Source: Deltaproteobacteria bacterium (GTDB lineage: Bacteria > Myxococcota_A > Polyangia > Polyangiales > JADJMO01). From it: DNA of 64,000 nucleotides. The DNA lies in assembly GCA_025363655.1 (NCBI GenBank), contig JANYDK010000036.1:1-64000 (forward strand), written 5' to 3'. Of the stretch, positions 4,368 through 29,100 are shown one piece after another. How positions within the stretch are numbered: the first letter of the stretch is position 1; the number at the start of each line of letters is the position of its first letter. A program made the translations under genes and the position numbers. The notes below the pieces were generated by a model. That model saw only the letters and a program-made list of their open reading frames with translations, did no database searches and had not been told where the DNA came from.

Positions 4368-4472
4368 GTTCGGGGCACAAGGCGCTCGCTGTGGATGGTT
4401 CGCAACCCTCGCAATGACTACCAAACCTCGACGAGCGCTCGCACTTCGCGTGGCGCTCGCACGAGGTGATGC

Positions 4473-4976
4473 ATGCGCGACGCGATGACGATGATGATTC
4501 CGATTTCGATCGGGCTTCTGGGATGCGGAAGCTCGACCAGCGGCGGCAACGACCAGGACGCAGCCTCCGATGCCTTCGACGCAGCACCGGCCGAAGTCGC
4601 AAAGGCCGACGTTGCAACAGCCGATACTGCGACGGCCGACGTTTCGAGCATACCGGCGGTTTGCGTGGGGCAGTTGATGGCGATGACCGAAGCGTGCCGC
4701 ACCTGCATTGCCGATCAGTGCATGCGCGAAGCCTCCGACTGTTGCGCGGTGACCACGGCGAGCGATGGCGGCGCGGATGGTTGCTTGCCGCTTGCCGTGT
4801 GTGCGCTCCGCACCAAGTGCAAGCACGCGAGCTGCGCCGATCCCTCGACGTGCGGGAAGGAGGTCGACGGCGCGGGTGGCCCGTTCGGCGAAGCAACCAA
4901 CGTCGCTGCGGGGCTCGGCGCCTGCATCGAGACGTCCGCGAAGTCGATGGCCTCCTGCGCGGAGTGCCTGAAATGA
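4473..4976 (+). CDS. Cys-rich lipoprotein
   Basis: The 167-residue product has a short hydrophobic signal ending in the lipobox LLGC (Cys18), then a low-complexity Asp/Ala/Thr linker (about 25-60) typical of myxobacterial lipoproteins. The C-terminal part has many cysteines: CRTC, CMREASDCC, CLPLAVC, CKHASC and CAEC. They probably form disulfides outside the cytoplasm. A GAGG Shine-Dalgarno sits upstream. The stop overlaps the next start (ATGA), so it is translationally coupled to the propeller lipoprotein. No known enzymatic domain is recognised. Confidence 0.82.
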   Translation: MRDAMTMMIPISIGLLGCGSSTSGGNDQDAASDAFDAAPAEVAKADVATADTATADVSSIPAVCVGQLMAMTEACRTCIADQCMREASDCCAVTTASDGGADGCLPLAVCALRTKCKHASCADPSTCGKEVDGAGGPFGEATNVAAGLGACIETSAKSMASCAECLK

Positions 4977-6142: not shown

Positions 6143-6159
6143 CGCGAAAGGAGATTTCG

Positions 6160-7218: not shown

Positions 7219-7311
7219 GCGAGTCGAGCGCCGTGACATCGGCGTAGCCCCGCACAGGCAAGTCATCGACAAGGGCGACCAAGGCACCGCTCCACGCAGA
7301 TGACCTCGGTT

Positions 7312-9374: not shown

Positions 9375-12300
9375 TGGAGCGTCCCACTTCTTTCGTAGGC
9401 TGCGGGCGGTGGCGAGCACCGCCGAGCGCGGCGTAAATTACGGGAAGAACGAGAAGTGTCAGCAACGTGGCGCTGATCAAGCCGCCGATGACCACCGTGG
9501 CGAGTGGCCGCTGCACCTCGCTGCCCGGCGCAGTCGACATCGCCATCGGCAAAAAGCCGAGTGAGGCGACCAAGGCGGTCATCAACACCGGGCGGAGTCG
9601 TCCCTCTGCCGCGCGACGTATTGCCTCGATGTGCTCGACGCCTTCTTGCTCGAGATGTCGCGCGAACGAGACGAGCACGAGCCCGTTGAGCACAGCCAGC
9701 CCGAAGAGCGCGATGAAGCCGATCCCGGCGGGGATGGAGAATGGAATACGTGTGACCGCGAGCGCGACGACGCCGCCAATGACCGCGAACGGTACGTTGA
9801 GGAAGATGATCGCTGCGCTTCGCGCCGAGCGAAACGCCATCCAGAGGAGGAGGCCGATCATCGCCAAGGCGATCGGCACCACGAAGAGCAGCCGCTCCTT
9901 CGCCTCGAGATAATGCTGGTACTGGCCGCCCCACTCGACGCGATACCCAATCGGAAGCGTCACCGCGCGCTGGACTGCTGCTTGGCTCTCGCGGACTACC
10001 GAGGCCAGGTCGCGACCCTGGACGTTGAACTCCACGGTCAGCCGACGCGACTGGCTCGATCGCGCAACTTCGGCCGGCCCGTCGACGAAGTCGAGCGCCG
10101 CGACGTCCCCGAGCGGCACGATCTGCCCGCTGACCGACTTCAGCGGCAATCCGAGGAGCACATCGAGATCGTCCTTGAAGCCGTGCAGCGTCTTCACGAC
10201 GATCCCGAAGCGCCTCTCGCCTTCGAGCACCACGCCGGTCGGAAAGCCGACGGCCATCGTCTGCGTGAGCTGATTGACGTCGGCGATCGAAAGTCCGTAG
10301 CGCGCGAGCTTGGCGCGATCGGGAGTCACGCGGAGGTACTTCAACCCCGCGACCTGCTCGACGCGCAGATCGGCCACGCCGGGAATGCCACGGATCGCCG
10401 ATGCGATCTTCTCACCGAGGTCCGCGAGCTGTTCGAGATCCGTGCCATACACGAGAATGCCGACGTCCGAGCGAATCCCTGCGACGAGCTCGTTGGTGCG
10501 CATCTCGATCGGCTGTGACATCGACCCGGAGATCTCCGGCACGGCCTCGTCGACCGCGGCCATGATGTCGGCGCCGAGCGATTCCTTGCTGACGCCGGCA
10601 GGCCACTTGGCAGGGTCTTCGAGCACGATGTAGATGTCGCTCGCCTCGATGCCCATCGGGTCGGTCGCGATCTCCGGCGAACCGGTGCGTGACACGACCG
10701 ATTTCACCTCGGGGAACTTCCGCACCACTCGCTCGACCCGGAGCGCCGTGTCGACCGATTCGCTGAGGGACGCCGCAGGCAGTCGCCTGGCCTCGATGAG
10801 TAGATCGCCTTCGTCGAGCTGCGGGACGAACTCGGCTCCGAGGTGCGTGAAGAGCGCGATCGTGCCCGCGAGCGCAGCGATGGTGAGCGTCACCGTCAGC
10901 CGCTTCCACGAGAGCGCGCCGCGCAGCATCGGGGCGTAGGCACGCTCAGCGAGACGCAGCAGGATGGTCTCGTGCGTCACGCGCTTCGGCCGCACGAGAT
11001 AGCTCGTCAGCACCGGCACGACCGTCAGCGACAGGATGAATGCGCCCCCGAGCGCCAGAAGCACCGTCGTCGCCATCGGCCGGAAGAGCTTTCCCTCGAG
11101 CCCACCGAGCGCGAGGATCGGTAGGTAGACGATGGCGATGATCGCTTCGCCGAATACGCTGGCCGCGCGTACCTCCATCGTTGCCTCGCGCACGACGTCG
11201 GTGCGCTCGTCGGCCGTCAGGTCTCTGCCCAGCGAACCCCGGCGCTCGGCGAGTCGCCGAACCGCGTTTTCGACGATGATCACGGCGCCGTCGACCAGCA
11301 GACCGAAGTCGATCGCGCCGAGGCTCATCAAGTTGCCGGATGCACCCGTCGCGTTCATCACCAGGACGGCGAAGAGGAGCGAGAGTGGAATCGTCACTGC
11401 CACGACGATGCCGGCGCGCACGTCTCCGAGGAGCAAGACGAGGATGACGATCACCAGCGCCGCGCCTTCGAGGAGGTTCTTTTCGACGGTGTGTACCGTC
11501 CGATCGACGAGGATGGAGCGGTCGTAGAAGGGCTCCAGCGTCGTCCCCGGCGGCAAGGTCGGCGCAATGGCCGTCAGCTTCTCCTTGAGCGCAATCGTCA
11601 CTGCGCGAGCGTTCTCGCCCATCAGCATCAATCCGACGCCGATGACTGCCTCGCCCCGACCATCGACGGTCGCCGCACCGCGTCTCAGCCGCGCGCCGAA
11701 TTGGACGTCGGCGACGGTCGCGATCGTGATCGGCACGCCCTGCGGCGTCGCACCGATGACCACCTGCCGGAGGTCGTCGAGGCTCGTGACCAGGCCCTTC
11801 GTGCCAATCACGAAGTGCTCGTCATGATGTTCGATGTATCCGCCGCCTGCATTCGCGTTCGACGTTTCGAGCGCTCTCACCACCTCGGCGACCGAAATTC
11901 CCGCGGCCTGCAGTCTCTTCGGATCGAGCACGACTTGGTACTGACGGTCTTCGCCGCCAAAGCTGTTCACCTCGACGATGCCCGGCACCATGCGTAGCTG
12001 GGGCGCGATCACCCAGTCGAGGAGCTCCTCGATCTGCATGAGCGTCATCGAGTCGTTGCGCACGACGAACTGGAAGATCTCGCCGAGCCCAGTCGTGATC
12101 GGTCCCATCTCGGGCTTGCCATAGCGCTCGGGGATTGCGTCCTGCGCCTCGCGCAACTTCTCGCCCACGAGCTGTCTCGCGAGATAGATGTCGGTGCCGT
12201 CGGCGAACACCAAGGTCACCACCGAAAGGCCGTATTTCGAGATCGACCGCACTTCCGTCATCTTCGGCGTGCCGGCCATCGCGCGCTCGACCGGGACGGT

Positions 12301-12501
12301 GACGTACTGCTCGATCTCGATCGGCGAGAGGGCAGGCGCGGCGGTGATCACCTGCACCTGGATGTTGGTGACGTCGGGTACTGCATCGACGGGCAAGGAC
12401 CTCGCAGCGCGGATGCCGGCGACGATGAAGATCAGCGTCGCGAAGACGACGATCGGTCGATTGCGGAGCGACCAGCTGACGATGAAAGCGAGGAGGCTCA
12501 T
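9364..12501 (-). CDS. czcA: Heavy-metal RND efflux pump, inner-membrane subunit
   Basis: The 1045-residue protein has the full HME-RND layout: TM1, a periplasmic porter domain, TM2-6, a second porter domain, TM7-12. The TM4 motif GAIDFGLLVDGAVIIVEN carries the proton-relay acids in the DFGxxVDG form typical of Zn/Co/Cd (Czc/Cnr) pumps rather than Cu/Ag (Cus) pumps. The conserved start SLPVDAVPDVTNIQVQV is also present. Length matches the family. It is encoded directly after czcB (2-nt gap) and overlaps the CDF gene. No czcC-type outer-membrane factor is adjacent, so it may use one encoded elsewhere, possibly that at 23638. Confidence 0.95.
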   Translation of the reverse strand: MSLLAFIVSWSLRNRPIVVFATLIFIVAGIRAARSLPVDAVPDVTNIQVQVITAAPALSPIEIEQYVTVPVERAMAGTPKMTEVRSISKYGLSVVTLVFADGTDIYLARQLVGEKLREAQDAIPERYGKPEMGPITTGLGEIFQFVVRNDSMTLMQIEELLDWVIAPQLRMVPGIVEVNSFGGEDRQYQVVLDPKRLQAAGISVAEVVRALETSNANAGGGYIEHHDEHFVIGTKGLVTSLDDLRQVVIGATPQGVPITIATVADVQFGARLRRGAATVDGRGEAVIGVGLMLMGENARAVTIALKEKLTAIAPTLPPGTTLEPFYDRSILVDRTVHTVEKNLLEGAALVIVILVLLLGDVRAGIVVAVTIPLSLLFAVLVMNATGASGNLMSLGAIDFGLLVDGAVIIVENAVRRLAERRGSLGRDLTADERTDVVREATMEVRAASVFGEAIIAIVYLPILALGGLEGKLFRPMATTVLLALGGAFILSLTVVPVLTSYLVRPKRVTHETILLRLAERAYAPMLRGALSWKRLTVTLTIAALAGTIALFTHLGAEFVPQLDEGDLLIEARRLPAASLSESVDTALRVERVVRKFPEVKSVVSRTGSPEIATDPMGIEASDIYIVLEDPAKWPAGVSKESLGADIMAAVDEAVPEISGSMSQPIEMRTNELVAGIRSDVGILVYGTDLEQLADLGEKIASAIRGIPGVADLRVEQVAGLKYLRVTPDRAKLARYGLSIADVNQLTQTMAVGFPTGVVLEGERRFGIVVKTLHGFKDDLDVLLGLPLKSVSGQIVPLGDVAALDFVDGPAEVARSSQSRRLTVEFNVQGRDLASVVRESQAAVQRAVTLPIGYRVEWGGQYQHYLEAKERLLFVVPIALAMIGLLLWMAFRSARSAAIIFLNVPFAVIGGVVALAVTRIPFSIPAGIGFIALFGLAVLNGLVLVSFARHLEQEGVEHIEAIRRAAEGRLRPVLMTALVASLGFLPMAMSTAPGSEVQRPLATVVIGGLISATLLTLLVLPVIYAALGGARHRPQPTKEVGRSNAA

Positions 12502-12503
12502 CG

Positions 12504-13736
12504 CTAGTCCTCCGCCATCGTGCTCTTGAGCGCGACGCTCTTGAGCGTGAAGACGCCCTCGACGACGACCAGCTCGCCGGCACGCAGACCTTTGACGATT
12601 TCGACTGTGCCTTGCGCGGCGCCGCCGAGCACCACGTCGTGCATCTCGAAATCGCCGTCCGGCTCCCGGACGAAGACGACCGACTTGCCAGCGATCTCGG
12701 TGATCGCCGAACGCGGTACGACGAGCACTGGCGGCGCAGACGGCGTGGGATCGTCGACCGCGACCGCGGCGGTCCCGAAGAGACCGATACGGAGCATGTC
12801 CGCGCGATTCTGCAGGACGATGCGCGCGGTCAGCGTGCGGGCGATGGGGTCGACTTCGCGCCCGACGTCGACCACGTTCCCGACGAAGACCTCTTTGGGA
12901 TACGCGTTGAGCACCACTTCGGTCTTCGCTCCCACCGCAATGTGGCCGAGGTCCTTCTCGAAGATTCGGGCGAGAAACCAGACTTCCGACAGGTCGACGA
13001 TTGCGCCGATCGCCTGGTCGGCCGTCACGGGCTGTCCCACGACGGCATGGCGACTGAGGACGAAGCCGGCCAGCGGCGCTTGCAACGAGAGGAGTCCAGG
13101 GCCTGCTCCGGCGCCGCCGCCGAGCGCGGCGAGCTGAGAGCCGAAGCCATCGGCCTCCGCCTGCGTGATCTCGGCGTTGGTCTTCGCATCGAGATATTCG
13201 CGCTGCGAAGTCGCGTGCGCTGCGAGCAGCTCGGCTTCACGGCGCTCGGTCACCTTCGCGGCCTTCGCGCGGGTAATGGCTTCGAGGTACGCCGCTCGCA
13301 ACTTTCCAAGCTCTGGGATCCGCACGACGGCGAGGACGTCACCTTTCTTGACGAAGGTCCCTTCTTTGAAGTCGACGCGCTCGAGACGTCCAGCAATCGG
13401 GGACGACACGCGCGAGCTGCGATCGGGATTGACCGAGACCTCGCCAGGGAGCGCGAGCACGGCAGCGAGCCTCTGCGCCGTCACCGGCTCAGTGCGTATC
13501 TTCGCGTCGACCACGACGCTTTCCGGCAGCTTGATCCGCCGGATGATTCCGCTGTGCTCTTCCTCATCGACGTGCGAACTGGTCGAGCTCGACGTGGATG
13601 TGGAGGGGGACGGCTCGTTGCGCCCAGAGCCACCACGTGGGCACGCGAGGAGGCCAGCCGCGCCGAGCGCGACCGCCAACATGGCGATGCAGGTCGATGC
13701 ACGCGAACGTGCACCGACGGAAAGGTCCGTCTTCAT
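12504..13736 (-). CDS. czcB: Heavy-metal RND pump, membrane-fusion adaptor
   Basis: The 410-residue lipoprotein has a signal peptide ending LLAC (about residue 32), a Ser/Thr-rich spacer with a short His/Glu patch (HVDEEEHSG), then the periplasmic adaptor domains. The lipoyl/barrel-sandwich half SPIAGRLERVDFKEGTFVKKG is followed by an alpha-hairpin (about 150-200, LRAAYLEAITRAKAAKVTERR), the second lipoyl half LQAPLAGFVLSR, and beta-barrel and membrane-proximal domains. It links the inner-membrane pump to an outer-membrane channel. It is the start of a tight czcBA-czcD-transporter operon, preceded by a small Cys-rich protein gene. Confidence 0.93.
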   Translation of the reverse strand: MKTDLSVGARSRASTCIAMLAVALGAAGLLACPRGGSGRNEPSPSTSTSSSTSSHVDEEEHSGIIRRIKLPESVVVDAKIRTEPVTAQRLAAVLALPGEVSVNPDRSSRVSSPIAGRLERVDFKEGTFVKKGDVLAVVRIPELGKLRAAYLEAITRAKAAKVTERREAELLAAHATSQREYLDAKTNAEITQAEADGFGSQLAALGGGAGAGPGLLSLQAPLAGFVLSRHAVVGQPVTADQAIGAIVDLSEVWFLARIFEKDLGHIAVGAKTEVVLNAYPKEVFVGNVVDVGREVDPIARTLTARIVLQNRADMLRIGLFGTAAVAVDDPTPSAPPVLVVPRSAITEIAGKSVVFVREPDGDFEMHDVVLGGAAQGTVEIVKGLRAGELVVVEGVFTLKSVALKSTMAED

Positions 13737-13819: not shown

Positions 13820-14212
13820 CTAGGCGGAGAGCGCGAGCGTTCGAGGTGGCCGGAAGAGGGACGGTAGATCGGGCCCCGAAGGCGCCGACGAGGCCGCGGT
13901 GATGGTCGTCAAGAGTAGGTCGAGCGCAGCGATCGGCACCGAGGCTGTAGTCGCTGCGGGAGGTATGGTGGCGATGGCGCCATGAGCGCAGTGGCAGGAC
14001 GGGCAGCCCGGCGGGCAGTCCAAGCCTTGCTTCTCGTCGGCGCAATCCTCTCCCTTCGCCGCCGACTCACAGCAATCGGGGAAGAGCGCGTCGCTGATCA
14101 CGTGCGTGACGCCCGTCAGTTGGACGAGGACCACGATCAGGAACGCGCGCAAGAGGCGCAACGCCGCCGGGGCGTAGCGTCGTCTATGGGTGGCCCTCAC
14201 GCTCACGCGCAC
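13820..14212 (-). CDS. Small membrane protein with Cys-rich periplasmic loop
   Basis: The 130-residue product has one N-terminal hydrophobic helix (about 20-45, LRAFLIVVLVQLTGVTHVIS), then a loop with seven cysteines in about 35 residues (DCCES, EDCADE, LDCPPGCPSCHC), then a hydrophobic stretch (about 90-110). The clustered Cys and His look suited to soft-metal binding. It lies 83 bp upstream of czcB on the same strand, so it may be the first gene of the efflux operon and act as a metal sensor or buffer. The start is a GTG at 14212, inside one arm of a large inverted repeat. Confidence 0.7.
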   Translation of the reverse strand: MRVSVRATHRRRYAPAALRLLRAFLIVVLVQLTGVTHVISDALFPDCCESAAKGEDCADEKQGLDCPPGCPSCHCAHGAIATIPPAATTASVPIAALDLLLTTITAASSAPSGPDLPSLFRPPRTLALSA

Positions 14213-14262
14213 AGCCTAGCGGCTGCTGCGCCCACTGGCCAGGGAGCCGCTCGTGGCTGTGC
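14209..14262. repeat. Two-step inverted repeat between divergent genes
   Basis: An outer perfect 8-bp pair (GCACAGCC at 14209-14216 and GGCTGTGC at 14255-14262) encloses an inner perfect 7-bp pair (AGCGGCT at 14218-14224 and AGCCGCT at 14245-14251), with a 20-nt loop and a small bulge. It covers the start codon of the leftward Cys-rich gene and ends 16 bp before the MBL-like pseudogene. It could be an operator or an RNA hairpin that hides the GTG start. Confidence 0.65.
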
Positions 14263-14278
14263 TAGCCTCGGCGCCGTC

Positions 14279-15528
14279 ATGCGTGTGACTCTGCTCGGAC
14301 ACTCGTCCGTCCTGATCGAGGCGCAAGGGCGCAACATCCTCGTCGATCCGGTCTTCAGCGAGCCCTTCGGCGAAGGCACTGTAATGACCTGCCCGGCCCG
14401 AAAGGTCGAGGTCGCGAACCTGCCCATGTGCGGACGCTCGGACCGGGCACCATCGTCGAGCACGGCGGCGCGCAAATTCTCACGACGTTCGCCGACATCG
14501 ACGCGATCGAGTTCGGCGTCGTCTTCAAGGATCGTACTGGCACTTTCTGGAACGAGGTCGATACCGTCGTCACGCCGAGCACGATCGAGCTCGCCAAGAT
14601 GCACTTCGGGGACATCGATCTGCTCTTCTCGGTCTACGCGAGTCAGAATCTGGGCTTCTTCGGCTCGATGCGCGCTGGCTATCCGCTCGACATTCCGAAG
14701 CGCAATCTCTCCAACGTCCGGCAAATCGCGCCAAAGCTGCTCGTCCCAGGCTCAGCGGGTTTTCGCTTCACCGGTGCGTTGGAATGGACGAATCCGTTTC
14801 TCTTCCCGATCTCGCGCGATCACTTCCTCGCCGACCTGCAACGCGTGGCGCCCGACATCCCCGCGGTGAACGCCAATTCCGGCGACGTCTTCGAGATCGA
14901 CTCGGGAAAAGTCACTCGGTTGCCCGCCGCCTCACCGGTCGCCCGGATGATCGAAGACGACACATATTCTCATCGAGTTCGACGCCACTGCGGCGATTCC
15001 ACCGCTCGAAGATCCGAATCTGCTCGGGTACGCGCCCTCGGTCATCCAAGAAAGCGTGTCCGCCTGTTTCGAGGGGATCGAGGCGTTCCTCGGATCCGCT
15101 GGTCTGCGAGATCCGCTCGTCGAAGATCATCGAAAGCGGTCGGTGACGTACGCGCTCGCTGTGCTCTTTCCTGACGGTGTCGGGCGCTGGCTCCATGTGT
15201 TCTTCGACCAGGCCGTGCCACGCGTCGTTCGGGCCGACGGTCCCTTGCGCGACGCCCGACGCCCGCGTCCCCCATCGCATCGCGGCCTCGGTGCCGACCG
15301 CGCGCCTGCGCTATGAAAAGAGCTACTGGTACTACCGAGGCTTCTCGCGTATGGCCGAAACGGCCGTCGGTACCGCCAGCGAAGCCGCCGGCGTCACGCG
15401 CGACGTGCAAAGGTGCCCGATCTGCTCGGGTACTACCTTCATCAGCGCGCGCCCGATCGATCAATGGCGCGTTTCGAAGGCTCGACTTCCAGTTGGAGAC
15501 CTTCTTCGCGAGCCAGCGGACGGGATAG
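14279..15528 (+). pseudogene. MBL-fold (UlaG-like) hydrolase, heavily degraded
   Basis: The start is clear: MRVTLLGHSSVLIEAQGRNI, then VDPVFSEPF, the first strands of a metallo-beta-lactamase fold. After EVANLP the frame changes and the sequence resumes at GTIVEHGGAQILTTF, so the segment expected to hold the HxHxDH metal motif is missing. The later stretch FKDRTGTFWNEVDT to DVFEIDSGKVTRLPAAS is well preserved. Then come further frame jumps: HILIEFDATAAIPPLEDPN near 14970, RLRYEKSYWYYRGFSRMAE near 15310, PDLLGYYLHQRAPDRSMARF near 15420, and LDFQLETFFASQRTG at the end. With at least four frame changes and a lost active site, the gene is dead unless the assembly is poor here. Confidence 0.85.
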
Positions 15529-15652: not shown

Positions 15653-15790
15653 ATGCGCCGAATTTTCGCCAACCTCGCCGTCGTCCTCGCCGTCCTCTCC
15701 GTTCCCAGCGTCGCGCTCGCCGCCTCGCAGGCTTCGCAAGGTTGCCACTGCGGTCCGAGTTGTCCGTGCGGCGCCGACTGCGACTGCTGA
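15653..15790 (+). CDS. Secreted Cys-rich peptide, metallothionein-like
   Basis: A 45-residue protein with an AAGGAG ribosome site starts at 15653. Residues 1-23 form a signal peptide ending VALA. The mature part is only about 22 residues and finishes with six cysteines and a histidine in CHCGPSCPCGADCDC. Such a density of thiols suggests binding of a soft metal or a disulfide-rich fold outside the cytoplasm. Its stop lies 15 nt before the GTG of the sigma-factor gene and in the same frame. No family is recognised. It could be the substrate, sensor or buffer of the system encoded next. Confidence 0.7.
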   Translation: MRRIFANLAVVLAVLSVPSVALAASQASQGCHCGPSCPCGADCDC

Positions 15791-15805: not shown

Positions 15806-16351
15806 GTGAACTCGACCGCCCGGGCGCAGCTCAACGAGCACATGCGCCGGCTCGCCGACGGGGATCGCTCCGCCTTCGAGCCGGTCTACGCATCGCTGTG
15901 GGCGCCCGTGCGGGCGTTTTGTTCGCGTGCGCTCACCGGCCTCGATGGCGAGGACGCAGCCCAACAAGCGCTGCTCAAGATGTTCTCTCGCGCCTCGTCG
16001 TTCGATCCAAGCGGCGACGCCTTGACCTGGGCGCTCTCCTTCGCGGCCTGGGAATGTCGAACGGTACGTCGACGTCGGGTGCGAGCACGCATCGGCGACG
16101 TCGATGCGAATGGCGCTGTGGACGCACGCGTCGATGGGAATCCGACCCCGGAGGCCGCGGTCATCGAGGCCGAGCTCGAGGCCGCGGCCCTCGAAGTGCT
16201 CGGCGCGCTCTCGGAAGCCGATCGAGCGACTCTGATGACGACCATGTGCGACGAGGTGCCTTCCGACGTCGGCGCGGCGACCTTCCGAAAGCGGCGTGAG
16301 CGAGCGATGACACGACTGCGCGAAGCCTGGAGAAAAGTTTATGGAAGCTGA
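15806..16351 (+). CDS. ECF-type RNA polymerase sigma factor
   Basis: The 181-residue protein shows sigma region 2 (about 15-85: FEPVYASLWAPVRAFCSRAL, DAAQQALLKMF, then WALSFAAWECRTVRRRR) and region 4 (about 125-178: LSEADRATLMTTMCDEVPSD, TFRKRRERAMTRLREAW). Region 4 is slightly divergent around the turn. The GTG start at 15806 has AAAGG just upstream. The gene overlaps the next by 11 nt, the arrangement usual for an ECF sigma and its membrane anti-sigma. It probably drives this operon, but no repeated promoter motif could be fixed by eye. Confidence 0.8.
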   Translation: MNSTARAQLNEHMRRLADGDRSAFEPVYASLWAPVRAFCSRALTGLDGEDAAQQALLKMFSRASSFDPSGDALTWALSFAAWECRTVRRRRVRARIGDVDANGAVDARVDGNPTPEAAVIEAELEAAALEVLGALSEADRATLMTTMCDEVPSDVGAATFRKRRERAMTRLREAWRKVYGS

Positions 16352-18020: not shown

Positions 18021-18683
18021 ATGAAACACAGCTTCATTTTCGGCACAGTGCTCTTGGGTCTTGGCTGCAGCAGCAGCACCGGCGCGGGTACGGGGTCATC
18101 CGCCGATAGCACCGTGAACGAGACCGGCTCCGTCGAGACCGGCGCGGAGGCAGCGACGGATGGTGAAGCCGACGCCGCTCTCGACGCACCGGTGCCTTGC
18201 GGCGTGACCGTCGGCGACAAGCTCTGCGACCTCCCTCTCCGCGGCTTTCTCCGCAACGAGACGTCGGGACTGGCAACGAGTGTCGATCTCACCGAGTTCA
18301 AGCTGTCCGACGCACTCGCGATGGGCACGCAGAAGTACGCCTTCGTCTTCGATGCCGCTTTCTGGTGAAGCCTTTGCAAAGCGGCCACCGGTCAGGTGGT
18401 CAAGACGCTTCCCAGCCACGCCGACAAGGCGATGTTCGTGGACTTGCTCACCGAGGGAACCACGCCCACGAGCCTGGCGACGGACGTGCAGGTCCGAGCA
18501 TGGGTGAACAGCCTGAAGGTGCCCTTCACCACGGCGCGCGATCCTGACGGCAGCGACTTCGCGATTCGCACGATCTATGGGGTCAAAGAGACCACGTACA
18601 TCGTCGATCGCGCGACGATGATCATCGTCGCGAAGGCCAAAACGCCGGAAGACGCCCTTACGGCGCTCGACGCGCTTCCTTGA
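18021..18683 (+). CDS. Thioredoxin-like lipoprotein selenoprotein with UxxC motif (candidate)
   Basis: The frame runs from ATG 18021 to 18683 (220 residues) with one TGA at codon 116. A signal with lipobox LGLGC (Cys16) and an Ala/Glu/Asp-rich linker precede a TlpA/AhpC-type fold. The segment is FDAAFW-U-SLCKAATG, so Sec116 takes the place of the first Cys of a WCxxC active site. The resolving Cys119, the VPFTTARD cis-Pro region and YGVKETTYIVDR follow the TGA and belong to the same domain. An upstream ATG at 18000 is possible. The SECIS-like hairpin overlaps the TGA. A nonsense mutation would hit this exact codon only by chance. It follows the barrel gene by 52 nt. Confidence 0.85.
18366..18411 (+). 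promoter_or_regulatory. SECIS-like hairpin after TGA codon 116
   Basis: The upper stem is GGCCACC (18383-18389) with GGUGGUC (18395-18401), seven pairs with one G-U, capped by GGUCA (18390-18394), 24 nt after the U of UGA. A lower stem GAAGC (18367-18371, including the GA of the UGA) pairs perfectly with GCUUC (18407-18411). Both the GGUC loop and the UGA-anchored lower stem match the known bacterial SECIS plan. Confidence 0.8.
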
Positions 18684-18699
18684 AGTGAGGAGACGACCC

Positions 18700-19674
18700 A
18701 TGCGTACCTCGATCGCCGGATTTCTCTGGCTCGTGCTGACGACGAGCTGCAGCAGTGGAAACGGCGGCTCGAGCGCGCCGGTCGATGGGGCCATACGCGA
18801 CTCTTCCGTATCGAGCGATACGGCGCTCGACGGAAACGACGACGCTGCGGAGCCTGACTGCTCCGAGCCGGTCGAGGATCGACCGCCTGGGGCCGTCTGC
18901 GTACACGACGTCAGAGGTCTCGTCGTTCAAGAGGCCGACGGAAAGACGCCGGTCGCAGGCAAGGTTGTCTCGGTATGTGGAAACGTCTGCTACTACGGCG
19001 GTACCAACGGCGCTGGCAACTTCTCCACGCACGTTGGCCACTACATCTCGATCGTCCAGTACCAAGTGCTGATTCATGGGCGCCCTGATCGCGCGAGTCT
19101 CTACGTGAAGCTCCCGGCGCCGAACAGTGACGGCGACATCGTGTTCGCGACGCCAATCGTGGTGCCGAGCTACGACTCGATGGGCCCGCCGCTCCCAGAG
19201 GATGATGCGCCAGGAGGCAAACTGACGGCCGGTGACGTCACCCTCACGGTTCCCGATGGCATCGAATACGACCTCGACCCCGAGGACGTCGCGCTCGGCT
19301 CCGACGGCCGCCTGTTGCGCTCGGTGCGATGGACCAGTGCGACGCTGCCCAGCTTCGTCGCGGGAAGCGACGTCGCCGCGCTCTACGCGCTCGCGCCCTT
19401 CAGCGTCCGCTTCTGCAAGTCGCGCCCGTGCCCCGACGCGGCCGAAAATCCGACGAGGATCCCTGTCTCCCTCAAGAACACCACCAGCCTCCCTGCTGGC
19501 ACGGCGGTCGAGTTCTTCATCCTAGGCACCGACCTCTACAGCGTTCCGAGGAACGCCGGTGTGCTCGTCGTCCAGGCCACGGGAAAGGTCTCTGCCGACG
19601 GCAAGACGATCGACACCGACGCCGGTCAAGGCATCAACGAGCTTTCGCTCATCGGCGTCCGAGCGAAGAAGTAG
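18700..19674 (+). CDS. Lipoprotein with carboxypeptidase-regulatory-like domain
   Basis: The ATG at 18700 has a GAGGAG ribosome site and starts 17 nt after the thioredoxin-like gene. The 324-residue product has a lipobox TSCS (Cys17), an acidic Asp/Ser linker, then a beta-sandwich segment (about 68-130: VRGLVVQEADGKTPVAGKVV, SVCGNVCYYGGTNGAGNFS) that resembles CarboxypepD_reg domains. A C-terminal all-beta region follows (about 170-324). Cys pairs occur at SVCGNVC and FCKSRPC. It contains no in-frame TGA. It probably sits on the outer or inner membrane with the two selenoprotein candidates. Enzymatic function is not evident. Confidence 0.78.
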   Translation: MRTSIAGFLWLVLTTSCSSGNGGSSAPVDGAIRDSSVSSDTALDGNDDAAEPDCSEPVEDRPPGAVCVHDVRGLVVQEADGKTPVAGKVVSVCGNVCYYGGTNGAGNFSTHVGHYISIVQYQVLIHGRPDRASLYVKLPAPNSDGDIVFATPIVVPSYDSMGPPLPEDDAPGGKLTAGDVTLTVPDGIEYDLDPEDVALGSDGRLLRSVRWTSATLPSFVAGSDVAALYALAPFSVRFCKSRPCPDAAENPTRIPVSLKNTTSLPAGTAVEFFILGTDLYSVPRNAGVLVVQATGKVSADGKTIDTDAGQGINELSLIGVRAKK

Positions 19675-20432: not shown

Positions 20433-21959
20433 TCACGGCACGCCCACGTGCACCTCGGCCATCATCCCGCGCTCCGAGTGCTCGGGAACGTGGCAATGGA
20501 ACATCCATTTCCCAGGCCGGTCGAACGCGCCGACGATGGTCACCGAATAGCCGCTGCGCACAGTGATGGTGTCCTTCTCAGCCTGCGAGATCATCTCTTT
20601 GCGTAGCCCAAAGGGGTTGATCTTCGGATCGTAGAGGTCGTCCGTATCGACGATCTGGAAGAAGAAGCCGTGCAGGTGGAAGATGTGGATCTGGTGACTG
20701 ACGTTGTGAATGTGGAACGTGCGTAGCCCGCCGAGCGGAACGGCAATCGGCGGGACGTCCATCCCGGCCTTCTTGTTGATGGTGAAGATCGGATCGCCCT
20801 TCATCGGCGTCGACATCCCGTCCATCATCGGGAGCGTGTACCCCTCGATTCCTCCGACGGTGCCTTGATCGAGCTCGATTTCGGTCGGGTCGCCGGATGG
20901 CGGGACGAGACGCGCCACGCCGACGCCAGGCAAAGCATCCGGAAGAACGCGCCCGGTGATGGGCTTCTCGCCCGAGATGCGGAACGTCGCAACTTTGGTC
21001 GCGGGCTGGGGATCATCGTCGGCCCTCTGGTAGGCGTCGCTGGTCAGCGTCAGCGTCGTGCTGGGCGCGCCCTGCGGGATGAGCAGCGCGTCGTAGCGCT
21101 CGGCCGGACCGATGAGCAGATGATCGATGTCGTACGGCTTCTCGAAGAGGCTGCCGTCGGTGCCGATCACGCGCCACGTGTAGCCCGGTATCGCGAGATT
21201 GAAGTAACGGAGGTTGGCGGCGTTGACGAAGCGAAAGCGATGAATGGCTCCGGGCTGCAACTCGACTAGGCGATCGGACTTGCCGTTTACCAGGATCGTC
21301 GGCCCCCACCGGCCATGGAGCTTCTGATCCATCGCCAGCTGCGCATAGTCGTCGACGTCGGCGGGCAGCGCTCCATCCGCGCCGAGCGTCGCGTCGTCGA
21401 GGACCAGCACGTGCTCGTGATCGACCTTTGGCTCCATCGCCCCGCGTACCCGGATGACGCCGTAGAGGCCGTGTCGAATCTGCGAATCGGATCGGTAGTG
21501 TGGGTGGAACCAGTAGAGCCCGGCGTCGGTGAGCTTGAAGACGTAATCGAACGTGCCACCCGGAGGGACCGGCGCCTGCACGGCAGGCGCGCCGTCCATC
21601 TCGTTCGGAACCCTCAACCCGTGCCAGTGGATCGTCGTCGGTTCGGGGAGCGAGTTCTTGAAGTGAATGCGCAGCTCGTCTCCCACCTTCGCATCGATCA
21701 GCGGGCCGGGGACCGTGCTGTTGTAAGCCCATGAGGACGTCGAAAGCCCAGTGACGTAGGACACGACGGTGCCCTTCGCTTCGAGCGAGAATTCGAAAAC
21801 CGATGGGTCGGGATTGATGTCGACGGCAGCGGCCAGTCCAGGGCTTTCTTCGGACGGCATCGCGATAGGCGGGCTCTCACTCTCCGCCGAGTGACAGGCG
21901 CCCACCACGCAGCACGAGGCCCCGAGGAGCACCGGCAGCATCGACACGCGGCGCATCAT
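20433..21959 (-). CDS. Multicopper oxidase (CopA/CueO-like), lipoprotein
   Basis: The 508-residue protein has a signal with lipobox VVGAC (Cys22) and three cupredoxin domains. All four copper-binding motifs are visible: HWHG (111-114), FHPHY, HIFHLHGFFF and HCHVPEHSERGM, which includes the T1 Cys/His/Met set. These enzymes oxidise Cu(I) or organic substrates with O2 in the periplasm and protect against copper. A TTG at 21998 overlapping the upstream stop is a longer alternative start; I prefer ATG 21959. A Met patch (LPMMDGMSTPM) before domain 3 may bind Cu(I). It is in one operon with the NHL-type lipoprotein. Confidence 0.93.
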   Translation of the reverse strand: MMRRVSMLPVLLGASCCVVGACHSAESESPPIAMPSEESPGLAAAVDINPDPSVFEFSLEAKGTVVSYVTGLSTSSWAYNSTVPGPLIDAKVGDELRIHFKNSLPEPTTIHWHGLRVPNEMDGAPAVQAPVPPGGTFDYVFKLTDAGLYWFHPHYRSDSQIRHGLYGVIRVRGAMEPKVDHEHVLVLDDATLGADGALPADVDDYAQLAMDQKLHGRWGPTILVNGKSDRLVELQPGAIHRFRFVNAANLRYFNLAIPGYTWRVIGTDGSLFEKPYDIDHLLIGPAERYDALLIPQGAPSTTLTLTSDAYQRADDDPQPATKVATFRISGEKPITGRVLPDALPGVGVARLVPPSGDPTEIELDQGTVGGIEGYTLPMMDGMSTPMKGDPIFTINKKAGMDVPPIAVPLGGLRTFHIHNVSHQIHIFHLHGFFFQIVDTDDLYDPKINPFGLRKEMISQAEKDTITVRSGYSVTIVGAFDRPGKWMFHCHVPEHSERGMMAEVHVGVP

Positions 21960-21994
21960 TGTCGGTTTTCCACTGACCGGTCGAGGCGAAGGCG

Positions 21995-23173
21995 TCAAGG
22001 CTTGGTATCGATGCGCAAGACGCGGTCACCGAGCATGTCCACGAAGTAGAGCTTCTCGTCCGGGCCGAAGGCCATCCCGCCGAGCGAACCAGGGGGAAGA
22101 CCGGTTTCGATCCAGTTCACACGCTCGCCTTCCGCGGTGAATGCCGAGATGCGCCCGTTGGCGTTGTCGGAGACGTAGATGAGCTCGTTGCGGAGCTCGA
22201 GACCAGAAGGTGACGTGAGCATCCCGCTCTCCGCCGTGACGACGTCGGTGAGCGTTGCGTCGTTCATGCGGAAGTACGCGGCCATCGGCTCCATGCTGGT
22301 CAGCTTCGCGCCCTTCGTGCCCGAGGTGGTATCGAGCTGGACGATGCGTGCGTTGCCAGTGTCGGCGATGAGCAGCGCTGCATCCGCGTCGCGATACGCG
22401 AGATGGCTCGGGACACCTGCCACGTACTTCAAGAGGCCTCGCACGTACTCGTAAGACTCTCCATCGGAGTGATCGTCGTTGCCGACGTTGTGATCTCTGT
22501 GAAAGTCGTATTTCACGATCGCGTTCGACATGCCGCTGATCGTCCAATAGATGTTCGCCGACTGGTGCGCGATGCCCATGCAGAGCGGGCTGTTGTGGAG
22601 CATGTCGAGGTGCGAGCCTAGGCCGTGCGGGTTCTTCTTCGCGAAGATCGATAGGTCCGACGACCAGAGCGCAGGGCCCATGAAGTTGTCCGCTGGCATC
22701 GTGTCGTCGCGCGTGTTGTGTGACTCCCCGCAGCTCGCGAAAGTGCCCGGCACGCCGAACGAGGTCTCGTCGGCGCCGAACGCGAGGGCGGCTGGTTTCG
22801 CCATGAAGTGCGACGCATCGGCATCTTTGCGCCGCTCGGCGCTTCGCCCGGAGGTACTGGCGTCGTGCACGATCACCGCGCTCTCGTCGCGGAGGTTGAG
22901 CACCCACAGCTCATCGGGTCGCAGCGGATTGAACGCAAGGTCGCGCGGCGTCGCGAGCTTCTCTGCGGCGCCGGCGATTTCGGTGAAGACGACGCTGGTG
23001 GACGAGTGATCGCCTTTGCCGAGCTCGGGGGCGCGCACGAGCGGCGCGGGCGCATCCTCGACCGGTGGCTGGGAGTCTTCCGTGGATGCGGGCCCGGATG
23101 GCGAGCCACCACCTCCGCCGCAGGCGGCAAAGGCGAAGCAGGGGGAGAGGATGAGGAGGTGGGTCGTCTTCAT
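21995..23173 (-). CDS. NHL-repeat-like beta-propeller lipoprotein
   Basis: The 392-residue product has a signal with lipobox FAAC (about residue 19) and a Gly/Ser/Pro spacer. The rest is a propeller built of NHL-like repeats: ATPRDLAFNPLRPDELWVLN, SHLAYRDADAALLIADTGNA, SPSGLELRNELIYVSDNANG and GGMAFGPDEKLYFVDMLG. His- and Met-rich patches (LGSHLDMLHNSPLCMGIAHQ; DFHRDHNVGNDDHSDGE) may bind metal. It directly precedes the multicopper oxidase gene on the same strand, so it may deliver copper to the oxidase or form a complex with it. It is divergent from the cus-like operon across a 464-bp gap. Confidence 0.82.
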   Translation of the reverse strand: MKTTHLLILSPCFAFAACGGGGGSPSGPASTEDSQPPVEDAPAPLVRAPELGKGDHSSTSVVFTEIAGAAEKLATPRDLAFNPLRPDELWVLNLRDESAVIVHDASTSGRSAERRKDADASHFMAKPAALAFGADETSFGVPGTFASCGESHNTRDDTMPADNFMGPALWSSDLSIFAKKNPHGLGSHLDMLHNSPLCMGIAHQSANIYWTISGMSNAIVKYDFHRDHNVGNDDHSDGESYEYVRGLLKYVAGVPSHLAYRDADAALLIADTGNARIVQLDTTSGTKGAKLTSMEPMAAYFRMNDATLTDVVTAESGMLTSPSGLELRNELIYVSDNANGRISAFTAEGERVNWIETGLPPGSLGGMAFGPDEKLYFVDMLGDRVLRIDTKP

Positions 23174-23637: not shown

Positions 23638-24966
23638 GTGGCACTGTGGTCCTCCATCAACAAGAGCTCGCTTCGGAGCGCGCTGCACAGTTCGACGTGC
23701 CAGCGGCGCAGCCGGCATTGGCCGGGTGCGTTTGCAGCCACTGCCCTCGCCATCACCCTGCTGACGTCGACTGCGCGCGCGGCTCCACCGCTCCCGTCTC
23801 CCCTCCATGTCGACGATGCCCTGGCCTACGCGCGCCAACATCGCGCCGAGATCGAGAGCGCGAAGTCCAAGGCAGCGGCAGCCGAAAAAACGCCAGCCGT
23901 CGTCTCGGGCCTACCTGATCCGATGGTGATGGGCTCCATCGATCATCTCCCATTCAAAGGCGCGATGGGCGCGGACTGGAGCGTGATGGTGCAGCAAGAG
24001 TTCCCGCTCTCGGGAATTCTCGGCGCTCACCGACGCGCCGCCGAGGCCGACGCCAAAGCCGTCGCCTCCAACGTGTCGACTGTTTCGCTCGACGTGGAGC
24101 TCGAGTCGCTCACTGCGTTTCTCATGCGCGTCGAGATCGACCGCATGGGAACCGTGGTCGACGAGCAGGTGACCATTTCCCTGCAGGTGCTCGGCGTGAC
24201 ACGCGCTCGACTCGCCGGTGGGGAAGGAAGCGCAGCCGAGGTGATTCGCGCAGAGGCCGACGTCGCGCGACTCGAAGGGCAGAGAAAGCAGCTCGACGCC
24301 GAAGCGGTCGGCGCGAACGCGATGCTCAACGCAGCGCTCGCACGCCCGACCGCGGGAGCGCTGCCCCCGCTCGAAATGACGTTGCCGATAGCGGAGCCAC
24401 CTCCCGTGGCAAAGCTCGTTGCGCTCGCCCTCGAACGTCGCCCAGAGCTGGCGACGATGAAATCGTACGCGGTCGCGGCGAACGAAAAGGTCAGCGTGAT
24501 GGACGCGATGTACACGCCGATGGCCTTTGCCCGCGCCGGGATCGCCTACCGAATGGACACTGGCTACGGCGGGATGTTGCTCTTCGGCATCTCCATCCCT
24601 CTCTGGCGCGAGAAGCTCGCAGCGGGCGTCGACGAAGCCAAGTCGATGGTGGCGATGGCCGATGCCGATGTCGCTGCGATGGCGAAGATGATCGAGGGGG
24701 ACGTGGCCGTCGCGCGGGCTCGAGTCATGGCGGCGCGGGTTCGGGTCGCCACCAGCCACGACAAGGTCGTGCCGTTGTCGAAGAAGGCGGTCGAGCTGAC
24801 GGTCATCAACTATGCGAGTGGCGAATCGTCGCTCGTGGCCGTCCTGGACGCGACGCGAATGCTCCGCGAGGCGCGCATGGAAGAGATCGCTGCGGAGCTC
24901 GCCACGGCACGCGCCTGGGCGGCGCTCGGACGCGCCATCGGCGCCGTGAAGCTGGGGATCACGTGA
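23638..24966 (+). CDS. cusC: TolC-family outer-membrane efflux channel
   Basis: The 442-residue protein has a signal region ending TARAAP and two OEP repeats rich in long helices. Examples are LHVDDALAYARQHRAEIESA, AEVIRAEADVARLEGQRKQL, ALERRPELATMKSYAVAANE and VELTVINYASGESSLVAVLD. It forms the outer-membrane exit duct of a tripartite pump. I chose the GTG at 23638 because GAGGAG stands four bases before it; an ATG at 23626 lacks a ribosome site. Its stop overlaps the adaptor gene (GTGA). It is the only outer-membrane factor in the window, so it could also serve the czcBA pump. Confidence 0.88.
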   Translation: MALWSSINKSSLRSALHSSTCQRRSRHWPGAFAATALAITLLTSTARAAPPLPSPLHVDDALAYARQHRAEIESAKSKAAAAEKTPAVVSGLPDPMVMGSIDHLPFKGAMGADWSVMVQQEFPLSGILGAHRRAAEADAKAVASNVSTVSLDVELESLTAFLMRVEIDRMGTVVDEQVTISLQVLGVTRARLAGGEGSAAEVIRAEADVARLEGQRKQLDAEAVGANAMLNAALARPTAGALPPLEMTLPIAEPPPVAKLVALALERRPELATMKSYAVAANEKVSVMDAMYTPMAFARAGIAYRMDTGYGGMLLFGISIPLWREKLAAGVDEAKSMVAMADADVAAMAKMIEGDVAVARARVMAARVRVATSHDKVVPLSKKAVELTVINYASGESSLVAVLDATRMLREARMEEIAAELATARAWAALGRAIGAVKLGIT

Positions 24967-26165
24967 AGACGACGCGATGCTTGGGTTCGATCGTCGTCGT
25001 CTTCCTCATCGCCTGCGCGCATTCGCAGGAGGAACACGAGGGACACGGCACGCCAGCGCCGCCGAGCGCCATGGCCACGGATCATTCGGCGATGGATCAC
25101 GGCGCGGCAGCAAGCGCGGCCGTCCCGTCGGGGTACGCCGCAGTCACGATCGATCCCGCGACCGCAGCCGCACACGGCCTCACCACGGCGCGCGTCGAAC
25201 ATCGAATGTTCACCAAGGACCTCCGCACGGTGGGAATCGTCACGCTGGACGAGAGCAAGACCGCGCACGTGCACGCCAAGGTTCGTGGTTTCATCGAGGC
25301 CATTCAGGCCGATTTCGTGGGGAAATCGGTCTCTACCGGTGCCCCTCTCTGTGCCATCTACAGTCAGAGTGTCTATGCCGCCGAGCTCGAGCTCGTCGCG
25401 CTGCTCGATCAGAAAACTCCGCCGAGCGACAACGCACTCGTCGCCGACGCCGAGCAGAAGTCGTGGACCGTGATCACCGGTGCAGCGAAGAGACGGCTCA
25501 TGCTGTGGGACGTCCCGAAGGGCGAGATCGCCCGCCTCGAAGCCACCCGACTGCCGAGCCGGACCTTCACGCTCTTCGCGCCCCGCGGCGGCGTCATCAT
25601 CTCGAAGCAAGCCTTCGTCGGCAACTACGTCGATCAGAACACGGAGCTCTATGTCATCTCCGATTTGAAGACCTTGTGGGTGCAGCTCGACGTCTACGAG
25701 GCCGAGCTGGCGTACGTGCATGCCGGCGACGCGGTGCAGATCGCCATCGAGGGCATCGAGAAGCCCATCGACGCGAAGGTGAGCTTCATCGCACCCACCA
25801 TCGACGAGGCGAGCCGCACGCTGAAGGTCCGCGTCGACGTTCCCAACCCCGACGGTCTCATCCGGCCGGGCGCCTTCGCCAGCGCGACGATGCACCTGGC
25901 CATGGGCCACGGGCTGGGGCTCGCCGAGGACGCGGTGATTCACACCGGGCCGCGCGAAATCGTCTTCGTCGTCCACGGCGGCGCCCACATCATGCCTCGT
26001 GAGGTGAAGCTCGGGCCGCTGGTGAACGGGTACTACCGAGTGATCTCCGGGCTCGAAGAGAACGACCAAGTGGCGACCGGCGCACAGTTCCTCCTCGACT
26101 CCGAGAGCCGCCTCCGCGCGACGAGCGAAGGGGGCGGAGCTCATGACGGACACGCCGGACACTGA
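24963..26165 (+). CDS. cusB: Heavy-metal RND adaptor (CusB-like)
   Basis: The 400-residue lipoprotein (lipobox LIAC, about residue 18) starts with a His/Met-rich metal-binding stretch (EEHEGHGTPAP, MATDHSAMDHG, residues 22-46) and ends HDGHAGH. The body has adaptor domains: HAKVRGFIEAIQADFVGKSV and LFAPRGGVIISKQAFVGNYV as the lipoyl halves, around an alpha-hairpin, and a barrel near DLKTLWVQLDVYEAE. CusB-type adaptors receive Cu(I) or Ag(I) and hand it to the pump. The GTG start overlaps the channel stop. It overlaps the pump gene by 23 nt. Confidence 0.9.
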   Translation: MKTTRCLGSIVVVFLIACAHSQEEHEGHGTPAPPSAMATDHSAMDHGAAASAAVPSGYAAVTIDPATAAAHGLTTARVEHRMFTKDLRTVGIVTLDESKTAHVHAKVRGFIEAIQADFVGKSVSTGAPLCAIYSQSVYAAELELVALLDQKTPPSDNALVADAEQKSWTVITGAAKRRLMLWDVPKGEIARLEATRLPSRTFTLFAPRGGVIISKQAFVGNYVDQNTELYVISDLKTLWVQLDVYEAELAYVHAGDAVQIAIEGIEKPIDAKVSFIAPTIDEASRTLKVRVDVPNPDGLIRPGAFASATMHLAMGHGLGLAEDAVIHTGPREIVFVVHGGAHIMPREVKLGPLVNGYYRVISGLEENDQVATGAQFLLDSESRLRATSEGGGAHDGHAGH

Positions 26166-29100
26166 CCGGGCGGCGGTCGCGAAGTCGCCGGAGCTCGGCT
26201 TCATCGCCAAGATCATCGATTTCTCGGCGCGCAACCGCCTCTTCGTCGTCATTGGCGCGCTCCTGCTCACGCTCGCAGGAGCGTGGTCGGCGCAGAGGAC
26301 GCCGCTCGATGCGCTCCCCGACCTCTCGGATACGCAGGTCATCGTCGCTACCGAGTGGATGGGACGCAACCCCACGTTGATCGAAGATCAGGTCACGTAC
26401 CCGATCGTCACCACGTTCCTCGGCGCACCGAACGTGAAGAACGTGCGTGGCTTCACCATGTTCGGGATGTCTTTCGTCTACGTCATCTTCGAGGACGGCA
26501 CCGATCTCTATTGGGCACGTTCGCGCGTCGTCGAGTATCTCTCGAAGATTCGTGACAAGTTACCCCCAGGGGTGAATCCGCAGATTGGACCGGACGCGAC
26601 CAGCGTCGGCTGGGTCTTTCAATACGTCCTCGTCGACCCTACCGGAAAACTCGACCTGCAGCAGCTCCGATCGCTGCAGGATTGGAACGTGCGATACGCA
26701 CTTCAGGGCGTCGAAGGCGTCGCCGAGGTGGCGAGCATCGGCGGCTTCGAGAAGGAATACCAAGTCGAGATCGACCCGGTCCGGCTCAAGGCTCTCGGTC
26801 TCTCGGTCGGGCAGGTCGCAGCAGCGATTCGCGGCGCCAACGACGAGGTCGGCGGTCGCGTGCTGGAGATGGCGCAGCACGAGTTCTCGGTGCGCGGACG
26901 CGGCTACGTGAAGGGAAAGGAGGACCTCGAGCTCGCGGTCGTCTCCACCAAAGCCGATGGAACGCCGATTCGCATTCGCGACATCGCCACGGTGAGCATC
27001 GGTGGCAACATCCGCCGCGGGCTGGTCGAGCTCGACGGTCTCGGCGAGGTGGTGGGCGGAATCGTCGTCATGCGATCGGGGGAGAACGCGCTCGCGGTGA
27101 TCGATCGCGTCAAGGCGAAGCTCGTCGAGATGGAGGCCTCGCTCCCCCAAGGCGTGAAGGTCGTCGCCGTCTACGATCGAAGCAAGCTGATCAAAGACTC
27201 GGTCACCACGCTCGCCACCAACGTTGCGCAGATCATCGTCATCATCGTCGTCGTTCTCGCGATATTTCTCTTCCACTTTCGATCGTCGCTGGTGAGCTTG
27301 ATCACCCTGGTGGTCGCCACCGTCGCGTCGTTCATCGCCTTTTGGGCGCTGAAGATGACCATCAACATCATGTCTCTAGCGGGCGTCATCCTCGCCCTCG
27401 GCGACATGGTCGATTCGGGCGTGGTCTTGGTCGAGAACGCGCATCGAAAGATCGCCGACGCCGAGAAGACCAGCGCCAAGGTCGACCGCACCGAGCTCGT
27501 CATCGCCTCGGCACGCGAGCTGGGCCCGTCGATGTTCGGCGCGCTGATGGTGCTGACGATCGCCTTCCTTCCCGTCTTCGTGCTCGAAGGCGAGGAGGGG
27601 CGGCTCTTTCGACCGCTCGCGCTGGCGAAGACGGCTTCGATGGCGGTCTCGTGTGTCCTCGCGATCACGCTCGTCCCGGCGCTGATGGTCTGGTTCCTCA
27701 AGGGCAAGATTCGCCCGGAAGAGAAGAACCCGATCAACCGACTGTGCATGGCGATCTATCGGCCGGTGCTGCACTTCAGTTTGCGACATCGTTGGCTCGT
27801 CATCGCCGCCGCGACCGTCCTCACGCTCTCGGCCTACGTACCCTTCTCCAAGCTCGGCTCGGAGTTCATGCCGCCCCTCTACGAAGAGGACGTGCTGTTC
27901 ATGCCCATCACCGTCCCATCGATCCCGATCGAGGAGGCGAAGCGGCTGCTCGCCTGGCAGGACGCGCAGATCAAGACAATCCCCGAGGTTGCGATGGTGT
28001 TCGGAAAGGCCGGGCGGGCAGAGACCGCGCTCGATCCGGCGCCGCTCTCGATGTTCGAGACGGTGGTGCACCTCCTGCCCCGCGAGAAGTGGCGGCCCGG
28101 CATGACAATGGAGAAGCTCCTCGCCGAGCTCGACGCCAAGACCAAGTCGCTCGGCGTGCAGGGCGCCTGGACGATGCCGATCAAGGCGCGCATCGACATG
28201 CTCTCGACGGGCATTCGGACGCCGATCGGGGTGAAGGTCTTCGGGCCCGATTTGGCTGGCATCGCCGACATCGACGCGGAGCTCGAGCGCGTGCTCCGGA
28301 CCGTGCCGGGAACGCGCAGCGTCTACGCCGAACGCGAGCTCGGAGGCTTCTTCCTCGACGTCACCCCCGATCGAGAGGCGATCGCGCGCTACGGCGTCAG
28401 CGTGCGAGACGTGCTCGACGTCGTCGAGAGCTCGATCGGCGGCATGGACGTCGGGACCACGTTCGAGGGACGCGAGCGATATCGCATCAACGTCCGCTAT
28501 CCGCGCGAGCTGAGGAACGACGTGGCCTCGGTCGGCGCCATCCTCGTGCCCGTCAAGACGATGCCGGGGCCACGGCCCACCGGCCCAAAGCAGTCCGCGA
28601 TCGCACCCGCAGACGTCACCAGCGGCCCGGCGATGGGTGGTGGCCCCGCAGACGAAGCGGCGGGAATGCCGGTCGCCGGGGGCGGCGTGATGACCTCGCC
28701 ATCGTCCGCCGTCGCCTACGTCCCACTCGGCCAGCTCGCGAAGATCGAGACCGTGATGGGTCCACCGATGATCAAGAGTGAGATGGGTTCGCTCACCGGA
28801 TGGGTCTACGTCGACATCGAAGGGCGAGACATCGGGCGATACGTCGTCGATGCGAAGGCCGCCGTCGCCAAGTCGGTGAAGTTGCCGCCCGGCTATCGGC
28901 TCAAGTGGACCGGCCAATACGAGCTGCTCGAGCGCGTGCGCGCGCGGATGCTGGTGGTGGTGCCGCTCACCTTGGCGATCGTGTTCGTGATTCTCTATTT
29001 CAACTTCCGCGGCGTCACCCAATCGCTGCTGGTCATGGCCGCGGTGCCCTTCGCCGCCGTCGGCGCGATCTGGACGCTATGGGTGCTGCGGTTCAACACG

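Follow-up and report, generated by a model that had tools for sequence, protein, structure and literature searches.

An in-frame UGA that very probably encodes selenocysteine, followed by a conserved SECIS-like hairpin, in a family of lipoprotein-like thioredoxin-type proteins of Myxococcota

We analysed a stretch of 64,000 nucleotides, hereafter called the window, from the draft genome of a Deltaproteobacteria bacterium placed among the Myxococcota (contig JANYDK010000036.1, positions 1 to 64,000 of the forward strand). A gene at positions 18021 to 18683 is interrupted by one internal TGA, and a short hairpin lies downstream of this triplet. The features of the locus are listed below.

18021..18683, + strand: predicted selenoprotein gene (lipoprotein-like, thioredoxin-fold, 220 residues, Sec as residue 116); the frame is open when the TGA is read as U
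18366..18368, + strand: UGA, putatively read as Sec, the first residue of U-S-L-C in W-U-S-L-C; the column is shared by 36/36 TGA members and is Cys in the Cys relatives
18367..18371, + strand: 5' arm (GAAGC) of a reported lower stem, overlapping the UGA; probably coincidental
18375..18377, + strand: Cys codon TGC, predicted second redox residue of UxxC; invariant column C79 in 36/36 (alignment of TGA members)
18383..18401, + strand: predicted SECIS upper stem-loop, GGCCACC (18383-18389) with GGTGGTC (18395-18401), 7 bp including one G-U, loop GGUCA (18390-18394); from the bSECIS-model scan, synonymous recoding and covariation
18407..18411, + strand: 3' arm (GCTTC) of the reported lower stem, exactly 40 nt on; probably coincidental
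18681-18683, + strand: normal stop TGA of the gene, from the open-frame translation
18685..19674, + strand: lipoprotein-like neighbour gene; its counterpart in L128 (38% identity, 171 bits) adjoins the Sec gene there
20433..21998, - strand: multicopper oxidase (Pfam Cu-oxidase_3, Cu-oxidase_2, Cu-oxidase), 62-63% identical to neighbours in L128 and L129

The TGA at 18366-18368 is the single internal in-frame stop of the gene and falls within a W-U-x-x-C redox motif. An in-frame ATG at 18000 is an alternative start to ATG 18021. The coding pattern of GC by codon position was seen on both sides of the TGA, and the relatives of the protein align upstream as well as downstream of the Sec site. The predicted protein begins with a lipoprotein-like signal (LGLGC; the lipobox was judged by eye and is imperfect), followed by a variable linker and then by a domain with a weak match to Pfam AhpC/TSA. 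AhpC-TSA (PF00578) was the best family for the window protein, at 22.7 and 21.9 bits, which is under the gathering cut-off of 26 bits, and it was matched by 19 of the 36 family members at E 0.01. The NCBIfam models gave no match to the window protein, and the ResA model of NCBIfam was matched by one of the 36 Sec members. From AlphaFold on 36 family members, a confident thioredoxin-like fold was obtained (pLDDT 93.5, pTM 0.86), in which the Sec site is model residue 76, immediately ahead of helix 77-93. The top structural matches of this model were thiol-disulfide oxidoreductases, DsbE-like proteins, the AhpC and BCP peroxiredoxins, ResA and deiodinase cores; for ResA, the comparison gave Z 15.0 and an rmsd of 2.4 over 130 residues. 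In a sequence search of solved structures, tryparedoxin matches at E 0.008 were consistent with the fold, and WD-repeat matches, which were summed from weak stretches, were set aside. The window protein shares the predicted fold and the CxxC-type active site with the ResA/TlpA/DsbE oxidoreductases, but would have Sec for the first Cys. A common fold by itself does not show the function of the modelled protein.

Table 1 of PMC13188914 contains a Prx-like thiol:disulfide oxidoreductase (PF00578, UxxC) and a redoxin family (PF08534, UxxC) as selenoproteins. Compared with these by their description in that table only, the window protein shares a predicted AhpC/TSA-like thioredoxin fold with UxxC, as well as AhpC-TSA as its best Pfam family, but it is under the Pfam cut-off, has a lipoprotein-like N-terminus and gave no NCBIfam match. 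By its predicted sequence, it belongs to a known kind of protein, the UxxC thioredoxin-fold selenoproteins, within which it represents a branch for which no NCBIfam model was found.

The search for the family in the order gave 70 matches, the window gene included, in 45 of 183 genomes. Exactly one TGA, and never TAA or TAG, was present in 36 of the 70 matches, and the other 34 were stop-free. In all 36, the TGA precedes two residues and an invariant Cys, and it falls in a single alignment column (41 TGA-x-x-C occurrences were found, from which 5 outside the family motif were subtracted). At the same column, the 27 Cys matches that were fetched from the 34 have Cys, so that the site there is CxxC. 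By an alignment-based search of the phylum, matches were obtained in 115 of 377 genomes, and at least 10 further TGA members share the same motif column; 46 TGA members were used, and the phylum holds at least 46. The source genome contains three TGA members (the window gene and those of C89 and C3) plus Cys members. Seven TGA members were observed in the single genome G051 (L021, L054, L055, L057, L061, L068 and L072), which is many for one selenoprotein family. In a quick tree of 86 rows, which has very long branches (L118, L079, L120, L035) and a join of L079 with L120 that may be false, the Sec and Cys members interleave, most simply by 10 changes, at least 7 being forced by the starred branches. 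A Sec member (L101) is 74% identical to a Cys member (L097). In the literature searched on selenoproteins of myxobacteria and Myxococcota (titles and abstract openings), no account of this family was found.

The decoding machinery for Sec was looked for in the source genome. SelB was found as a 651-aa frame scoring 296.4 bits, over the cut-off, and tRNA-Sec was detected at 62.5 bits with Rfam and also by ARAGORN. The SelD gene (L131, G000:C90:12973-13932) has an in-frame UGA in AHGAG-U-ACKI, at a position known to hold Sec in SelD, and the SelD of this genome is itself predicted to be a selenoprotein. A 6-bp hairpin with the loop GGUGC was observed 32 nt downstream of the UGA in this gene. For selA, no match was obtained in the source draft genome with TIGR00474 or PF03841, nor by synteny; SepSecS (PF05889) was not found in this draft genome either, and selA was present in 7 of 7 relatives tested. 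Because the draft is 96% complete and lies in 150 contigs, a gap, a move or a loss of selA are all possible. Next to selA in G050 is a gene whose counterpart in the source genome is 66% identical. At the place that selA takes in G050, the source genome has type I restriction-like genes (L140, G000:C33:1-16000, 3907-9952; by eye). Across the genomes with family members, tRNA-Sec (E 1e-8 or better) was found in 18 of the 21 that bear TGA members versus 2 of the 24 whose members all have Cys, and the Fisher p of 1.2e-7 is only a guide since related genomes are not independent. The three TGA-bearing exceptions, which gave no tRNA-Sec match (G004, G049 and G115), have SelB above the cut-off. Of the properties by which a selenoprotein gene is recognised, an in-frame UGA aligned with the Cys of homologues and a frame open beyond it were found at the gene, and SelB, tRNA-Sec and SelD in the host genome.

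A sequence-only reading of this DNA had described a 7-bp upper stem with a GGUCA loop downstream of the TGA, and a perfect pairing of GAAGC around the TGA with GCUUC 40 nt later. Both are present, at 18383-18401 and at 18367-18371 with 18407-18411, respectively. With RNAfold, the upper and lower stems both form in 18366-18413 (48 nt; -16.8 kcal/mol), and the hairpin region alone gave -14.1 kcal/mol. The fold of 18366-18413 is unexceptional (z -1.32; 20 of 200 shuffles were as stable). The chance background was taken from the 1389 TGA triplets on both strands of the window. A 7-bp hairpin (7 bp or more, no more than one G-U, within the SECIS range) follows 54 of these triplets, and such a hairpin with GGU in its loop follows 4, while some 5-bp lower stem was found for 203 and both stems together for 10. 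When the window gene was recoded synonymously, the 7-bp hairpin appeared in 9.5% and the lower stem in 1.3% of the recodings. The Rfam scan detected no SECIS family here and gave two chance-level matches only, and no SECIS-like hairpin follows the normal stop TGA 18681. Taken alone, the window sequence is suggestive of a SECIS and not decisive.

The bSECIS model given in PMC13188914 has an apical loop of 3-9 nt, an upper stem of 4-16 bp, G in the first two loop positions, mostly followed by G or U, a distance of 16-37 nt from the UGA to the apical loop, and a minimum free energy of -7.5 kcal/mol or lower. The window element agrees with all of these, with the 5-nt loop GGUCA, the 7-bp stem, a spacing of 21 nt from the UGA to the apical loop and the two energies given above. 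It breaks no constraint of the model as printed, and a lower stem is outside those constraints.

The hairpin was then compared across the family by using this model and requiring an uninterrupted stem of 6 bp or more, and the expectation was calculated by redrawing the codons synonymously. Of the 46 UGA sequences, 43 distinct ones entered the count, as did all 40 Cys sequences. The model hairpin was found in 31 of the 43 UGA genes, as compared with 11.6 expected, and in 4 of the 40 Cys genes, as compared with 5.0 expected. The 12 UGA genes that fail the contiguous 6-bp criterion are L026-L030, L055-L057, L069, L074, L099 and L119, in several of which the stem is interrupted by a mismatch or bulge. 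An earlier measure, the hairpin energy against synonymous recoding, gave a mean z of -0.84 for 36 Sec genes and -0.01 for 27 Cys genes, with p of 0.05 or less in 5 of the 36 Sec genes, and separated Sec from Cys less sharply than the model-based count.

The pairing itself was followed in the alignments. In the window's own group of five related rows, 34 of 35 stem cells are paired (97.1%) and three pairs show double changes, the exchanges being G-C/C-G and A-U/G-C; the shuffle control for these five related rows was modest, the covariation score being reached by 15 of 500 shuffles. In the 32 UGA sequences outside this group, the 3' arm lies three bases further on, 84.4% of the cells are paired, four pairs have changes on both sides, and the covariation score was reached by none of the 500 shuffles. 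Helices slid along these sequences were 28-44% paired. These 32 were taken from 38 UGA sequences outside the window's group, with L061, L074, L101, L118, L119 and L120 omitted because their stems are placed or interrupted differently. At the two sets of stem positions, the Cys genes have 118 or 120 of 280 cells paired. In L061, L101, L115 and L118, the hairpin is made of quite different sequence and has AGGUC, GUC or GGU in the loop. Covariation across orthologues, which had been proposed as a check, was found for the upper stem. Given this comparison with the relatives, the upper stem is beyond chance, and the upper hairpin is, as judged from the alignments, a SECIS under selection. The proposal of a SECIS in a thioredoxin-like WUxxC gene was borne out, with the UGA at the Cys column and an upper stem-loop that is conserved and covarying.

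For the lower stem, any 5-bp Watson-Crick stem between nt 1-9 and nt 37-62, numbered from the U of the UGA, was counted. It was found in 2 of the 43 distinct UGA genes, one of them the window gene, as compared with 5.9 expected, and in 8 of the 40 Cys genes. Five of five pairs at the exact position occur in the window gene alone among the UGA genes, and L021 and L054, whose proteins are 50-54% identical to the window protein, keep the TGA and the upper stem and do not have the lower stem. Because it is rare in the UGA genes and exact only in the window gene, the lower stem is counted as probably coincidental, at most a local extra. The sequence-only reading had regarded the lower stem anchored at the UGA as a telling feature, and this was not supported; its two-stem plan, held to be unlikely by chance, survived in its upper half only. 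The result that it had named as refuting, a stem missing from orthologues in which the TGA is retained, was seen for the lower stem but not for the upper one. It had further suggested folding and a comparison with the fdhF-type SECIS. The fdhF-type SECIS of E. coli has a bulged U in its upper stem. Like this type, the window element has, downstream of the UGA, an upper stem whose loop contains GGU, but this stem is continuous, without the bulge, and the lower stem on the UGA side is unconserved in the family. By the published model, the element is predicted to be an ordinary bacterial SECIS, not fdhF-like in its details. A correct Sec reading combined with a two-stem SECIS, in which a UGA-anchored lower stem is functional as in the fdhF-like plan, would suit the existence of the 5-bp stem, its participation in the RNAfold structure and its appearance in so few synonymous recodings of the window gene. 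The shortage of such stems among the UGA genes, the confinement of all five pairs to the window gene and the frequency of some 5-bp lower stem after the TGA triplets of the window make this reading unlikely.

The upper hairpin could instead be a by-product of protein and GC constraints, with Sec inserted by the aid of little or no RNA structure. The protein sequence alone accounts for 11.6 of 43 hairpins, and many members have Ala-rich sequence downstream of the motif, which makes a stem more likely; against the 31 seen, the 4 of 40 in the Cys relatives, the exchanges of G-C to C-G and A-U within the stem, and the stems of very different sequence that L061, L101, L115 and L118 form around GGU or GUC loops, we regard this as highly improbable. 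The TGA could also be a true stop, either in a pseudogene or as the end of a gene at 18366, perhaps with a second frame from GTG 18396. Such a stop would be in keeping with the lack of a selA match in the draft genome and with the 95-aa ORF that starts at this GTG, but the shortened product would have neither the second redox Cys nor most of the fold. Furthermore, TGA alone among the stops occupies the same active-site column in 36 of 36 stop-bearing members from many genera, and a conserved hairpin, conserved residues and a coding pattern follow it, which leaves a true stop with only a very slight probability. Translation of the TGA as another amino acid without a SECIS, either Trp or, by suppression, the Cys that relatives without TGA have at this column, is close to negligible, because TGA 18681 serves as the normal stop of the same gene without a SECIS-like hairpin, and because the link with tRNA-Sec and the excess of hairpins in UGA but not Cys genes fit Sec. 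A split-gene reading of the window gene was rejected along with the pseudogene and other-amino-acid readings.

We conclude that UGA 18366 very probably encodes Sec in a lipoprotein-like thioredoxin-type oxidoreductase, aided by a SECIS hairpin. The observations are a UGA kept where relatives have Cys, the conservation of the hairpin, the decoding genes apart from selA, and the predicted fold. From these we infer read-through, binding by SelB, lipid anchoring, the redox direction and the partners. The gene product would be a Sec-containing lipoprotein-like thiol:disulfide oxidoreductase with a thioredoxin/TlpA-AhpC fold. SelB carrying Sec-tRNA-Sec would bind the upper stem-loop (7 bp, GGUCA), and the Sec delivered by SelB would be inserted by the ribosome at UGA 18366. 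In the protein, Sec would be the attacking residue of U-x-x-C at the helix start and would be partnered by the Cys three positions later; the exchange of disulfides would be extracytoplasmic and might involve proteins encoded around the multicopper oxidase.

The neighbouring genes recur near other Sec members. In G051, counterparts of both the lipoprotein-like gene (38%) and the oxidase (62%) are found close to the Sec gene L021 (in L128), and the Sec gene L054 (in L129) adjoins a counterpart of the oxidase (63%). Pfam gave no family for the product of 18685..19674. At 454-2340 of L128 (G051), near the Sec gene, is encoded a protein that combines a CxxC segment with a di-haem peroxidase domain of the MauG type. 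The locus is flanked in the window, at 8343-13736 and 24963-29553, by a cation efflux gene and two sets of RND efflux genes, in which AcrB-type pumps are combined with CusB/HlyD-type partners, and because of these the region looks like a metal-resistance cluster. Other genes of the window were also noted. A Cys-rich, exported-looking peptide of 45 residues (15653-15790), ending CHCGPSCPCGADCDC, directly precedes an ECF-type sigma factor (15806-16351); it gave no match in Pfam and could, from its sequence, be a metal binder. A metallo-beta-lactamase-like gene at 13982-15316 appears to extend over more than one frame (13982-14869, 14428-15174 and 15056-15316), as if frameshifted.

The gene neighbourhood suggests a possible role in exported metal or copper redox work. 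Sec copies of the family number up to seven per genome, with three in the source genome. It is a tentative idea, with the odds rather against it, that the Myxococcota of this order multiplied exported Sec thioredoxin-like lipoproteins for extracytoplasmic redox work on copper or other metals, with Sec and Cys swapped repeatedly; as an example within the same tentative idea, the copper-site cysteines might be kept reduced for the multicopper oxidases.

A standard gene caller would end the gene at the TGA, and the redox lipoprotein family would thereby be truncated or overlooked in many genomes of the group. The hairpin offers a GC-rich SECIS in which selection is visible on the upper hairpin alone. 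As a multi-copy family with interleaved Sec and Cys forms, these proteins are a good natural experiment on Sec versus Cys, and if the copper and metal redox idea is true, the repeated swaps could give direct evidence of the circumstances in which selenium benefits an exported oxidoreductase.
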